DNA from: Leisingera sp. ANG-M1 | GTDB lineage: Bacteria > Pseudomonadota > Alphaproteobacteria > Rhodobacterales > Rhodobacteraceae | Length of the DNA: 64,000 nucleotides | Assembly (NCBI RefSeq): GCF_000813745.1 | Contig: NZ_JWLC01000006.1 | Coordinates: forward strand, 248,001-312,000 | Direction of reading: 5' to 3' | Shown here: positions 35,219 through 50,648 of the stretch, piece after piece | Layout: each line of letters opens with the position of its first letter | How positions within the stretch are numbered: position 1 is the stretch's first letter | Notes under the pieces: model-generated | Database searches by the model: none | What the model saw: the letters and a program-made list of their open reading frames with translations, nothing else | What the model was told of the DNA's origin: nothing | Position numbers and translations under genes: made by a program

Positions 35219-35349
35219 CTCCCGCGCCCGCGCGGAACTCCGGCCCAAGGCCGGACTTCCGGACGGCCTTGGGCCCGGCGCCGCGCTTTGCGCGGCGCCG
35301 GGCCCAACTGCAGGGGCTGCATTTTCAATGCAGATCCGGCAGGCGGGAG
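35219..35349 (-). repeat. copy A of the 3' structured repeat
   Basis: Begins 34 bases after the stop of the CaiB-type gene. Plus-strand order: CTCCCGCGCCCGCGC; a short GGCCCAAGGCCGG region; CGGCCTTGGGC; hairpin arms continuing to an 18-bp perfect stem closed by a TTT loop; GCCCAACTG; hairpin CTGCATT/AATGCAG; GCGGGAG, which pairs with the opening CTCCCGC. Only this copy also contains GGCCCAAGGCCG, which can pair alternatively with CGGCCTTGGGCC. Confidence 0.75.
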
Positions 35350-35383
35350 CCCGCCCGTCAGCGAACAGCGCTGCCGCAGCGTG

Positions 35384-36565
35384 TCAGGCCACCGCCTCCC
35401 GGGCTTTCAGCGCTTCGAACCTCTCAGGCGAAATACCGACCGCTTCCAATACCGCGGCACTGTCCGCGCCGTAGGCTTTCGGCCCATGATCCAGCGACGG
35501 GCTGCCATGGCAGTAGGAGAACCCTGCCACCGTGCGCTTGCACCCATCGACGTCCTGCACCACGCCGCGGGCCTGATACTGCGGTTCTGCCAGGCTTTCT
35601 TCCAGAACCCGGACCCGTGCAGCCGGAACATGATGGGCATTCAGCAAGTCTTCCCACTCCGCTGCAGTCCGCGATTTCATCACTTCGGCCAGGATATCCG
35701 CATCCCACGTCCTGCGGGCAGCGATACCCGCCCGCGGCGTCCGCTCGATTGCCTCCGCCTCGCCCGGCCTGCCGATGCTGCGCATCAGGGCGGCCATCTG
35801 GCGGTTGGTGTAGGCGCCGATCATCAGCGTGCCTTCTGCCGTCTGGTAAGCCGAATAGCCTGCAAGCGACGGATCCTGGTTGCCATGCGGGCGCGGCCCC
35901 TTGCCGGTGGCCAGCGCCTGCGCCGCACCGGAGTTCTGCAGCATCAGCGCCGCATCGGCCATTGCCACGTCAATGCGCCGCCCCCGGCCTGTCACCGCCC
36001 GCCCGTAGAGCGCCGCGGCGATGGCAAAGGCTGCCTGGGCTCCGGTGCCGTAATCCACCATCGCAGGCCCGACCCGCACCGGGTCCTGCCCGGCCTCGCC
36101 ATTGGCCGCCATGATACCGCTGAAGGCCTGGATCACTGTGTCATAGGCCGGGTGCTCTGCTTTCGGCCCCTGCTGCCCGAAACCGCTGATCGCGCAATAG
36201 ATCAGATCAGGCTTCAGCTCCGCCAGCCGCTCATACGTGAGCCCCAGCCGCTGCACCGCCGGCAGGGTGTAATTCAGCACCACCACATCTGCGCTCTGCA
36301 CCAGGCGGGCAAAGATCTCCTGCCCTTCCGGCATTGCCAGATCCAGCGCCAGGCATTTCTTGCCCGCTCCCTGGGCCTGAAAAGCCAGCCCCATGCCCTG
36401 CGCATTCAGCTCCGGGTCGGCGCCCTCGCTGCGGGTCATGTCGGGCTGGCCGACCGGCTCGATCTTGATCACTTCTGCGCCCAGGACCGCCAGCTGGTAG
36501 GCTGCAAAGGGCCCGGCAAAGACATGTGTCAGGTCGAGAACCCGGATACCTTCAAATGGCCGCAT
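35384..36565 (-). CDS. CaiB/BaiF (class III) CoA-transferase
   Basis: 393 residues. PFEGIRVLDLTHVFAGPFAA, the VVVLNYTLPAVQRLGL segment and AISGFGQQGP are family hallmarks, and the catalytic Asp is in MVDYGTGAQAA. The enzyme moves CoA between carboxylic acids, for instance in carnitine, oxalate or itaconate-type metabolism; the substrate is not evident. It stands alone, ahead of the beta-barrel-like gene, and is followed by structured repeat copy A. Confidence 0.92.
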   Translation of the reverse strand: MRPFEGIRVLDLTHVFAGPFAAYQLAVLGAEVIKIEPVGQPDMTRSEGADPELNAQGMGLAFQAQGAGKKCLALDLAMPEGQEIFARLVQSADVVVLNYTLPAVQRLGLTYERLAELKPDLIYCAISGFGQQGPKAEHPAYDTVIQAFSGIMAANGEAGQDPVRVGPAMVDYGTGAQAAFAIAAALYGRAVTGRGRRIDVAMADAALMLQNSGAAQALATGKGPRPHGNQDPSLAGYSAYQTAEGTLMIGAYTNRQMAALMRSIGRPGEAEAIERTPRAGIAARRTWDADILAEVMKSRTAAEWEDLLNAHHVPAARVRVLEESLAEPQYQARGVVQDVDGCKRTVAGFSYCHGSPSLDHGPKAYGADSAAVLEAVGISPERFEALKAREAVA

Positions 36566-36767
36566 GGATAACCCTCCCCTGTTACAGCGAGGCTAGGAGC
36601 AATGGGCAAGGCTTACCGGTCTGTTTCCGCCATCGCCCGCGTCGTTTTCAAGCGGCAGCAGAAGGGGCGCTGCCCCTCTTGGCCTGGCGGCCAATTCACC
36701 CCGGAGTATTTTGGCAAAGGTGAAAGGGCGGGGCGCCTCCCCGCCGCCAGATTTGGCAGGCCCGCGG
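36566..36767. other. intergenic region with GGAGTATTTT motif and hairpins
   Basis: 202 bases. It holds a GGGGCGC/GCCCC hairpin (about 36664-36676) and the motif CCGGAGTATTTTGGCAAAGG at 36701-36720 followed by TGAAAG, with TTCACC and GGTGAA flanking it. A related motif occurs on the minus strand at 39624-39645 and twice at 44282-44332. No gene. Confidence 0.45.
36727..36745 (-). terminator. putative terminator of the beta-barrel-like gene
   Basis: Stem GGCGGGG/CCCCGCC, followed on the minus strand by CTTTCACCTTTG, about 22 bases after the stop at 36768. Short T-tract, so moderate support only. Confidence 0.4.
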
Positions 36768-37523
36768 TCAGTGGCGCCGGAAAATCCGTCCGGCATTGAC
36801 ACCGAAGGACTTCACCAGCGTCAGGCTGAAGCTGCTGTTGTTGGCGCCGCTGCTAAAGTAATTACGGGATGCACTGGCATACAGATTATAGCCTTTGGGC
36901 ATTTTGGCGCGCAGGCCCAGCGAAAACCCCTTATCGTCGGACCGCGCAAATCCTCCGGCCCCGCCGGTTACATAAAGCTCTGTTTTACGTCCCGGCGCGT
37001 TCAGCCTGTACTCGCCGCCTACAGAAAATGCGGGATTGGATGGGCCGCCGAGGAACTCAGTCACGCCAATTCCCGCCTGCCCCCACTCAGCAAAATAGGA
37101 ATACCTCAGCCTCACGGACTCGCTCTCGCCGACAAATGCCCGCGCCGGAGCCGGGCCCAGCCTGTATTCATACCGGGAGTAAGAATAGCCTAAGCGGACT
37201 TCATGCGCGCCACCGATGTCCCATGCAGCGGTGATGTTATAGTCAGCAGAGAAATCATCGCCCTCATCCCGGGCACGGTCTTCAACAAGCCGGGTTATAC
37301 CCCGCGCGGCAGACCCAATCAGCCGGAACCGTTCGCCCAGCAATGCTCCGAAACGCAAACCAGCCTCGGCACTGGCCGTGTCCAAAAATCTGTCACTGGT
37401 CCTATGGCCGATACCGGCACTCACTTCCACCGCAACCCGGTCTCCGTCAGGTTGCGCTTGGGCCAAAGCTGCTGAGGCGGCGAAGGTACCGCAGAAAATT
37501 GCGGTCAGAAAATGCAGTTTCAA
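36768..37523 (-). CDS. outer-membrane beta-barrel-like protein
   Basis: 251 residues with a signal peptide (LKLHFLTAIFCGTFAASAAL, cleavage after AQA). The mature part alternates hydrophobic and polar residues in strands such as HEVRLGYSYSRYEYRLG, SVRLRYSYFAEWGQAGIG, KTELYVTGGAGGF and GYNLYASASRNYF, the pattern of a beta barrel, and ends in a short strand (FSLTLVKSFG) before a basic tail. The TTG at 37523 is chosen because AGGGA stands upstream and it gives a normal signal peptide; an ATG at 37562 would add a charged N-terminal stretch. Role unknown. Confidence 0.7.
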   Translation of the reverse strand: MKLHFLTAIFCGTFAASAALAQAQPDGDRVAVEVSAGIGHRTSDRFLDTASAEAGLRFGALLGERFRLIGSAARGITRLVEDRARDEGDDFSADYNITAAWDIGGAHEVRLGYSYSRYEYRLGPAPARAFVGESESVRLRYSYFAEWGQAGIGVTEFLGGPSNPAFSVGGEYRLNAPGRKTELYVTGGAGGFARSDDKGFSLGLRAKMPKGYNLYASASRNYFSSGANNSSFSLTLVKSFGVNAGRIFRRH

Positions 37524-49304: not shown

Positions 49305-49448
49305 TGAGGAAGACTCCCGCTCAATTATTGCAATTTTAGAAAGAATACCCCCTCGAATTGCTGAATCGAAGCGGGAAATGGAATGCTCTCTCCTATGCCG
49401 CTTTGCTAATAAGGGCCGCTCCCGCAACCCGGAAAGAAAGGCACCGAG

Positions 49449-50489
49449 ATGAAAGCCGTTTTGTACGAAAGCTTTGGCCAAGCGCCGCAGGTGAAGACCG
49501 TGGCGGACCCCGCGCCCGAACCCCACGGCGTGGTGATCAAGGTCGAAGCTACCGGTGTCTGCCGGAGCGACTGGCATGGCTGGATGGGGCATGATCCGGA
49601 TATCACCCTGCCGCATGTGCCAGGGCATGAGCTGGCGGGGACAGTGATGGCCGCGGGCAAGGATGTTAAGAAATGGAAGGCCGGCGATCGGGTGACGGTG
49701 CCTTTTGTGGGCGGCTGCGGTGCATGCCCTGAATGCCACGCAGGCCATCAGCAGGTCTGCCACAGCCAGTTTCAGCCCGGCTTTACCCATTGGGGGTCTT
49801 TTGCGGAATATGTCTCGATTCACCAAGCCGATCTGAACCTGGTGGCGCTTCCTGAAGACATGGGCTTTGCCACCGCCGCCAGCCTCGGCTGCCGCTTTGC
49901 CACCTCGTTCCGGGCGGTGGCGGATCAGGGCCGGGTTTCGGGCGGGCAATGGGTGGCAGTGCATGGCTGCGGCGGCGTCGGTCTGTCGGCGGTAATGATT
50001 GCCAATGCGCTGGGCGCCAATGTGATTGCCATCGACATTGCGGAAGACAAGCTGGCGCTGGCCCGCGATCTGGGGGCGGTTGCTGCGGTCAATTCAAGCA
50101 CCGTTGCGGATGTGGCAGAGGCCGTGCGCGAGATCTCCCGCGGCGGCGCAGATGTGTCGCTGGATGCGCTGGGGCATCCGCAGACCTGCTTCAATTCGGT
50201 GAACTGCCTGCGCAAGCGGGGCAAGCATGTGCAAGTGGGGCTGATGCTGGCGGATCACAGCACGCCGCAGGTTCCGATGGCACGGGTGATTGCGGATGAG
50301 CTGGAGATCCTGGGCAGCCACGGCATGCAGGCACACCGCTATGGTGCGATGCTGGACATGGTTCAATCCGGCAAACTGGCGCCGGAGCGGCTGGTGGGGC
50401 AAGAGATCAGCCTGGAGCAGTCCGTTGCGGCGCTGACGGAAATGGACCGGTTCCAGGCCCTGGGGGCCACTGTCATCACTCGCTTCTAA
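49449..50489 (+). CDS. zinc-dependent alcohol dehydrogenase
   Basis: 346 residues, medium-chain dehydrogenase. Catalytic zinc ligands are visible in [13 protein letters not shown] (Cys) and [13 protein letters not shown] (His-Glu); the structural zinc lobe [20 protein letters not shown] has four Cys. [20 protein letters not shown] is the NAD(P) Rossmann motif. It oxidises an alcohol or reduces an aldehyde; substrate unknown. Divergent Lrp-type regulator; convergent GntR gene, with repeat copy C between. Confidence 0.93.
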
Positions 50490-50518
50490 ACCGCCCCTGC
50501 CAGACAGGTCCGGCAGCC

Positions 50519-50648
50519 CTCCCGCGCCCGCGCACCACCGGCCAAAGCCGGCGCCGCTGGCGGCCTTGGGCGTGGCCCGGCGCCTGCGGCGCCGGGCCAC
50601 GCCCAACTGTGAGGGCAATTTTCCAAAATTGACCGGAGCAGGCGGGAG
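50519..50648 (-). repeat. copy C of the 3' structured repeat
   Basis: Lies between the convergent alcohol dehydrogenase (stop 50489) and GntR gene (stop 50687). Plus-strand order: CTCCCGCGCCCGCGC; hairpin CCGGC/GCCGG; CTGGCGGCCTTGGGC; a 19-bp perfect stem with arms GTGGCCCGGCGCC/GGCGCCGGGCCAC inside TTGGGC/GCCCAA and a TGC loop; CTG; hairpin CAATTTT/AAAATTG; GCGGGAG. Sense orientation follows the GntR gene, as in the other copies. Confidence 0.8.

Follow-up and report, generated by a model that had tools for sequence, protein, structure and literature searches.

ERIC, RIME and similar repeats are intergenic, palindromic sequences of about 100–150 bp that are present in many copies. For the repetitive extragenic palindromic (REP) sequences, roles in termination and mRNA stability have been proposed (passages of PMC3733652). 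In Bacillus, terminators that are shared by convergent genes are reported to be under an extra constraint, with G.U as the usual intermediate (passages of PMC5381666). Here, we describe a repeated three-hairpin element of about 130 bp that is present in three copies (elements A, B and C) in a stretch of 64,000 nt from the alphaproteobacterium Leisingera sp. ANG-M1 (contig NZ_JWLC01000006.1, positions 248,001–312,000, forward strand), hereafter called the window. The element lies at the 3′ ends of genes, keeps its fold while its letters change, and carries two side hairpins whose mismatches follow opposite wobble rules. A first-pass annotation made from the letters alone had pointed out the three copies and had proposed either an RNA of the 3′ untranslated region (3′-UTR) or a mobile palindromic DNA repeat.

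Architecture and Distribution of the Element

The three copies are positioned on the minus strand at 35219..35349 (A), 48686..48812 (B) and 50519..50648 (C), and their boxes, coordinates and stems are as the first-pass annotation described them. On the plus strand of the window, the motifs CTCCCGCGCCCGCGC, GGCCTTGGGC and GCCCAACTG have exactly three occurrences each, at the positions given there; the minus strand has three further occurrences of GGCCTTGGGC and none of the other two. In the following, F is the sense that corresponds to the minus strand at the window copies, and R is the opposite strand. Read in F sense, the element consists of CTCCCGCC, a first side hairpin (hp1), a central TTGGGC-arm-loop-arm-GCCCAA, the box GGCCG, a second side hairpin (hp3) and GCGGGCGCGGGAG, and it can be described as two inverted half-elements (CTCCCGC, side hairpin, TTGGGC-arm) meeting at the long central hairpin. 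An inverted-repeat search returned central stems that are 100% complementary, with 18 bp and a 3-nt loop in A (35269..35307; I7), 18 bp and a 2-nt loop in B (48733..48770; I9), and 19 bp and a 3-nt loop in C (50566..50606; I6). The hp1 of A (CTGCATT/AATGCAG) is found at 35317..35333 and that of C (CAATTTT/AAAATTG) at 50616..50631, and the hp3 of A covers 35234..35260, with approximate limits drawn by eye.

Far more than a handful of copies exist. Searched at the DNA level, the own genome yielded 55 matches, among them several that are both strands of a single place. The covariance model R1, built from 12 own-genome copies including the three of the window, gave 60 matches at E ≤ 0.01, representing 38 distinct places (30 at E < 3e-6), when the best 150 of 12701 candidates were scored, the E-values being rough; element A scored 103.7 bits, but is itself a member of the training set, as are B and C. 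The pattern CTCCCGCN{102,132}GCGGGAG was found at 26 places, at least four of them without the inner boxes, compared with 3 for the reversed control. A stricter pattern, whose copies carry intact boxes by construction, had 131 matches over all 21 Leisingera genomes, own included (one element of genome G012 is counted twice), and 0 for the reversed control.

Among the matches listed in a scan of named genomes (at least 107 loci, all of which were used, with names for 80 of the 107 and none for L137–L163), Leisingera, Phaeobacter, Pseudophaeobacter, Ruegeria, Tritonibacter, Epibacterium, Parasedimentitalea and unclassified Rhodobacteraceae are represented. The strict pattern was detected in 7 of 394 genomes of the wider family, counting the own and one same-genus genome, and in 18 of 292 genomes of an order sample, while the R1 model found the element in 6 of 120 genomes, three of which belong to genera without a strict match among the 394. 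Matches in the wider family and order are few, and therefore the element family looks narrow in range. Only a tRNA was found by Rfam 15 at the gathering threshold over the whole window, and a permissive search of 48500–50800 gave 11 matches, each under its own gathering score, in agreement with the earlier failure to place the element in a known family. Plasmid-borne spread was dropped as a candidate after a single query, which gave two plasmid records with partial matches.

Several copies depart from the standard form. Symmetric variants with an hp1-type half at both sides are seen at L004:1501-1647 and L023:668-809, and the centre of L026 has an added hairpin. Two near-identical composite elements in the same orientation lie 420 bp apart at L150:6170-6322 and 6590-6742; this local duplication is probably the same as G490:C58 of the order sample. 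Elements are also carried by a record named 'Nocardioides marinus strain DP1N28-1' (L057 and L082; JAHVJD010000003.1 and JAHVJD010000002.1), a name that looks wrong.

Conservation of Fold and Position

The fold of the centre is kept while its letters change. In 99 unique simple-centre copies (of 105), examined over 12 positions inward of TTGGGC and GCCCAA and anchored on these boxes alone, the central arms pair in 98.6% of cells, whereas 500 shuffles of the arms among copies reached a maximum of 77.1%. Non-Watson-Crick pairs take up 21 of 1568 centre cells. All 99 copies have a common frame, TTGGGC-NNGGCNCNGCGC, within which 36 arm types occur and variation is mostly at arm positions 1, 2, 6, 7 and 8. 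The distal arms had been said to differ wholly between copies while each is matched by its complement; the kept pairing holds, but 'wholly' was an overstatement. At shared chromosomal positions the arm types switch as units, such as CAGGCTCAGCGC and GTGGCCCGGCGC in group 0.

The same behavior was observed among orthologues. Twenty orthologous copies 3′ of apt were aligned without structure, giving 990 cells (alignment A2, which excludes the degraded copy of G001 and includes that of G005, missed by the pattern and placed by hand). Here, 97.9% of cells pair compared with 93.7% in shuffles, and 42 cells are double-changed compared with 11.8 (0 of 500 shuffles as high in both cases); nine pairs are changed on both sides compared with 5.9 (3 of 500 as high), and structures slid out of register pair only 36–47%. 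Because the double changes are concentrated in a single helix, they represent fewer covariation events than cells. The covariation proposed for the element is real. An extension of the outer stem by the flanks was rejected (2.46 vs. 2.44 shuffled).

Positions are inherited as well. The 137 elements obtained from 20 of the 21 Leisingera genomes (none from G018) form 27 positional groups, 23 of which are present in at least two species; group 9 merges two neighboring positions (window B and C), so 27 is the number of groups. Outside Leisingera, 6 of 45 named loci adjoin a homologue of a Leisingera group neighbor, five of them on both sides: L067 (Phaeobacter) and L089 (Pseudophaeobacter) for group 21, L118 (uncultured Rhodobacteraceae) and L130 (Tritonibacter) for group 1, and L119 (uncultured Rhodobacteraceae) for group 20. 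The sixth, L073 (Pseudophaeobacter), matches group 1 on one side.

Retention differs between loci. Two positions were checked in all 21 genomes. At apt, where the element has an extra central hairpin (L347–L367) and is far better retained than at ribD, 20 copies are at or near full length and one is degraded. The ribD gene is present in 21 of 21 genomes, and by our own reading the element there is full in 6, reduced to remnants or internally deleted in 9 and not recognizable in 6; the blanks may be losses or never-occupied sites. The gene of locus A was found, at the threshold used, in three of the 21 genomes, with an intact copy in the own genome only, one internally deleted copy and one remnant. 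Looked at for the clean empty sites and target duplications that mark an active MITE, ribD and locus A thus show remnants and deletions, together with the six blanks at ribD. The dehydrogenase of locus C has matches in 11 of 21 genomes. Two of these genomes besides the own (89–90% identical) have the element, and in one of the two its centre contains a compensated change; the remaining eight matches (about 73–74%) are in other contexts, with no element in the 420 nt examined.

In 19 sister-species locus pairs, which were conditioned on intact boxes, 10 of 456 sites differ in the central arms, 30 of 526 in hp1, 42 of 627 in hp3 and 15 of 66 in the loops, compared with 124 of 1131 and 193 of 1109 in the two 60-nt flanks. 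Relative to the flanks, the central arms are about 5 to 8 times slower and the side hairpins about 2 to 3 times slower overall. Shared positions across species, together with central arms slower than flanks, argue against present mobility.

Placement at Gene Ends and Strand Polarity

None of 111 elements (at least 107 listed loci plus the window) is intragenic, according to gene calls made by our own codon-model caller (coding fraction 0.80) and not taken from annotation. Both neighbors were called for 100 copies, of which 58 lie between convergent genes, 29 in tandem settings in the opposite sense, 8 in tandem settings in the same sense and 5 between divergent genes; 95 of the 100 face a gene 3′ end, and the median distance to the facing stop is about 30 nt. 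By majority, the 27 Leisingera groups comprise 16 convergent (SA), 6 AA, 4 SS and 1 AS, where the six AA groups include group 13 with 3 of 5 copies called as overlapping a dubious open reading frame, and both AA and SA settings occur within groups 3 and 8. Among background gene pairs separated by 60 nt or more, 74 of 450 (16%) are convergent, compared with 16 of the 27 groups (binomial p=6e-7), which bears out the non-random placement suggested from the window. The window copies also read in the same sense relative to the gene before them; a constant orientation of this kind was rejected for the family in general by the 29 opposite against 8 same tandem settings. Of the 54 neighbor proteins, 30 were scanned; 28 had Pfam hits, in diverse families, and two had no hit. 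There was no transposase among these 30, and no genome-wide search for REP-associated tyrosine transposases (RAYT), which go with GTAG-type REPs, was made.

The two side hairpins differ in the strand on which their mismatches are tolerable as wobble pairs. The mismatch test counts nothing but Watson-Crick pairs, which puts G.T and A.C on an equal footing. On F, the mismatches of hp1 show A.C over G.T in 14 groups vs. 0, and those of hp3 show G.T over A.C in 17 groups vs. 0. The bias first appeared in the 105 cross-genus copies, where the ratio of AC/CA to GT/TG is 29:1 in hp1 and 4:42 in hp3. From composition, near equality is predicted (GT share 0.48 and 0.55). RNA folding energy gives the same polarity: hp1 is stabler as R RNA in 27 of 27 groups and hp3 is stabler as F RNA in 27 of 27. 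In a dinucleotide control with at most four copies per group, about half of the energy difference proved to be composition, and the remainder persists in 26 (hp1) and 25 (hp3) of 27 groups. The groups are not fully independent because they are related by descent. The centre is free of wobble bias (TG 5 and AC/CA 4 of 1568 cells), as a stem used on both strands would be. The opposite wobble rules therefore suggest that each side hairpin is made for the strand whose transcription would reach it last.

The Window Copies and Their Neighbors

Each window copy follows a minus-strand gene. Element A lies 34 nt after the stop of a gene for a CoA-transferase of family III (35384..36565; PF02515), B 15 nt after that of an Lrp/AsnC-type regulator (48828..49304; PF01037), and C 38 nt after that of a GntR/FCD regulator (50687..51340; PF00392, PF07729). 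Element C also lies 29 nt past the plus-strand stop at 50489 of a zinc-binding alcohol dehydrogenase gene (49449..50489, plus strand; PF00107, PF08240) and is therefore positioned between two convergent genes. Same-place copies of both B and C are present in G002 and G003. Further along the window, the minus strand encodes at 51421-53208 a protein of 595 aa whose N-terminal part is an adenylate/guanylate cyclase domain (PF00211) and whose gene adjoins that of a YgjP-like metallopeptidase (53334-54020). An A/T-rich imperfect 21-bp inverted repeat with a T-run (44282-44332; I8) is perhaps an ordinary terminator.

Possible Function and Origin

Judged from sequence, the element is quite possibly a REP/BIME-like repeat of old origin in the Leisingera-Phaeobacter-Ruegeria group, by now largely immobile, which acts as a bidirectional transcript-end element. 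Transcripts of either flanking gene would enter the element, both strands would make use of the central stem, and on each strand the side hairpin that comes last would fold, namely hp3 on F and hp1 on R. The folded 3′ end could block antisense read-through between converging genes and/or shield the mRNA from 3′ exonucleases, and Rho might or might not take part. Template switching may supply the compensated changes of the stems, although it does not explain the placement. In a stronger form, which we consider unlikely, the element would be a dedicated two-way transcript-end module, with a common central stem and two strand-specific hairpins tuned to the transcript arriving last, whose stem arms pass from copy to copy as whole cassettes while the chromosomal positions stay fixed; evolution would then proceed by stem swapping and not by point compensation.

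Several results weigh against a function at transcript ends. The polarity is no weaker in settings where just one of the flanking genes has its end at the element (SA vs. AA; hp3, p=0.60; hp1, p=0.67), and this independence of context is contrary to the prediction from selection on local transcripts. There is no strong T-tract: T-runs of at least 4 within 25 nt past the element are seen in 29 (F side) and 16 (R side) of 196 cases. With full copies in no more than 6 of 21 genomes, the element is dispensable at ribD. In the pair G007/G013, hp3 differs at 20 of 131 sites, like its upstream flank (37 of 240), and further pair types at apt are not above shuffles (21 vs. 22.4). In favor of a function at transcript ends, outside terminator-like sites are fewer in element-bearing convergent gaps of 40–250 nt (14 of 47 with the element vs. 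34 of 65 without; p=0.021), which suggests substitution, but the comparison is weak, with loci partly orthologous. Over all lengths, such sites occur in 19 of 57 convergent gaps with the element vs. 53 of 93 without, and in 50 of 158 divergent gaps without it.

The alternatives explain different parts of these data. The element could be a fossil REP-like mobile repeat without host function, whose halves were spread by a single-strand-specific transposase recognizing hairpins of single-stranded DNA (ssDNA), inserted or survived mainly at gene ends, and are now decaying. Dozens of dispersed copies, the mosaic halves of L004, L023 and L026, a polarity that belongs to the half-element regardless of gene context, and decay through deletion at ribD and locus A all agree with such an origin, which we nevertheless hold to be somewhat unlikely: positional groups common to two or more species, outside loci that share neighbors, the slow central arms and side hairpins, the scanned neighbor proteins free of transposases and the retention of the apt copy in 20 of 21 genomes speak against it. 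The 3′-UTR RNA and the mobile palindrome of the first-pass annotation are not cleanly separated by these results. The opposite-strand wobble of the side hairpins argues for single-strand folding, while its context independence keeps a REP-like origin in ssDNA open. A duplex site, on the other hand, should not tell G.T from A.C by strand, and a DNA-level element, such as a cruciform or a protein site (gyrase, HU, domain boundary) where positive supercoils meet between convergent genes, is accordingly improbable in our estimation, although the long perfect palindrome and the convergent enrichment would suit it; the invariant CTCCCGC and TTGGGC boxes would also suit it, but they were required by the search patterns and so are not independent evidence.

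The perfect stems might also be kept by mutation and not by function, if template switching at replication copies arm onto arm and copying between repeats swaps arm types. Template switching has been proposed for rRNA and other hairpins (passages of PMC8794818), and the scarcity of non-Watson-Crick centre pairs and the switching of whole arm types at shared positions are in line with it. Among same-arm pairs, the loops are reverse complements of each other in 8 of 165 within groups vs. 9 of 432 between groups; loop inversion is only suggestive and was dropped as proof of template switching. We regard mutation as an unlikely sole keeper of the stems, as it leaves gene-end placement and the strand-polar side hairpins unexplained, and stepwise change also occurs, since the G002/G003 pair shows single uncompensated changes near the loop. 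A classical bidirectional Rho-independent terminator would account for the strong GC-rich hairpins that follow soon after stop codons, as in intrinsic terminators, and for a modest T enrichment at +8 to +14 past the element (29–43% on the F side and 22–36% on the R side); when its 15-nt tail is included, the element passes our terminator score in 8 of 57 convergent gaps and 12 of 35 tandem ones. Runs of four or more T are uncommon, however, and the flanks do not lengthen the outer stem, so that a strong intrinsic terminator is unsupported and the classical type has only a small chance of being the answer. Because the T-runs are short, a classical terminator is less likely than a transcript-end element acting as a polymerase-stalling stem or as protection of a Rho-made end.

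Comparison With Known Systems

The element family is apparently undescribed, and REP/BIME-like in kind. Word searches of main texts found no Ruegeria, Silicibacter, Phaeobacter or Rhodobacter in PMC3733652 and no palindrom, stem, convergent or terminator in PMC4809877, on sRNAs of Ruegeria pomeroyi. In the open-licence literature, mostly at the level of listings and with PMC6060812 among the passages, no paper was recognizable as describing the repeat. If our reading is true, the element is an apparently new structured gene-end family in well-studied marine bacteria. Opposite-strand wobble would then provide a sequence-only test for two-way hairpin use that could serve for other repeats, and more than 100 natural replicates at shared positions in 21 genomes bear on selection vs. 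template switching as the keeper of perfect stems.

The present element resembles ERIC and RIME in size, intergenic site, palindromy and copy number. Integron attC sites, whose core motifs are similar to the boxes, were dropped, by eye only, as the order is inverted. Like REP/BIME and the CGTC-tagged REPs, the element forms dispersed intergenic palindromes and inverted dimers in alphaproteobacterial hosts (passages of PMC3733652 for the REPs), and it has the many dispersed intergenic copies of a REP. Unlike REP/BIME, it is about 130 bp long and has three hairpins and an 18–19 bp centre. The REP tag, an unpaired GTAG or CGTC at one end of a short palindrome, is absent in that form: CGTC precedes hp1 in 57 of 105 copies and is found in 0 of 105 in the other half, and GTAG or CTAC occurs anywhere in 10 of 105. 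As in bidirectional intrinsic terminators, one segment folds on both strands between convergent genes (passages of PMC5381666), but the present element differs from them in having few T-tracts, three hairpins, strand-specific side hairpins round a common centre, and a repeated family.

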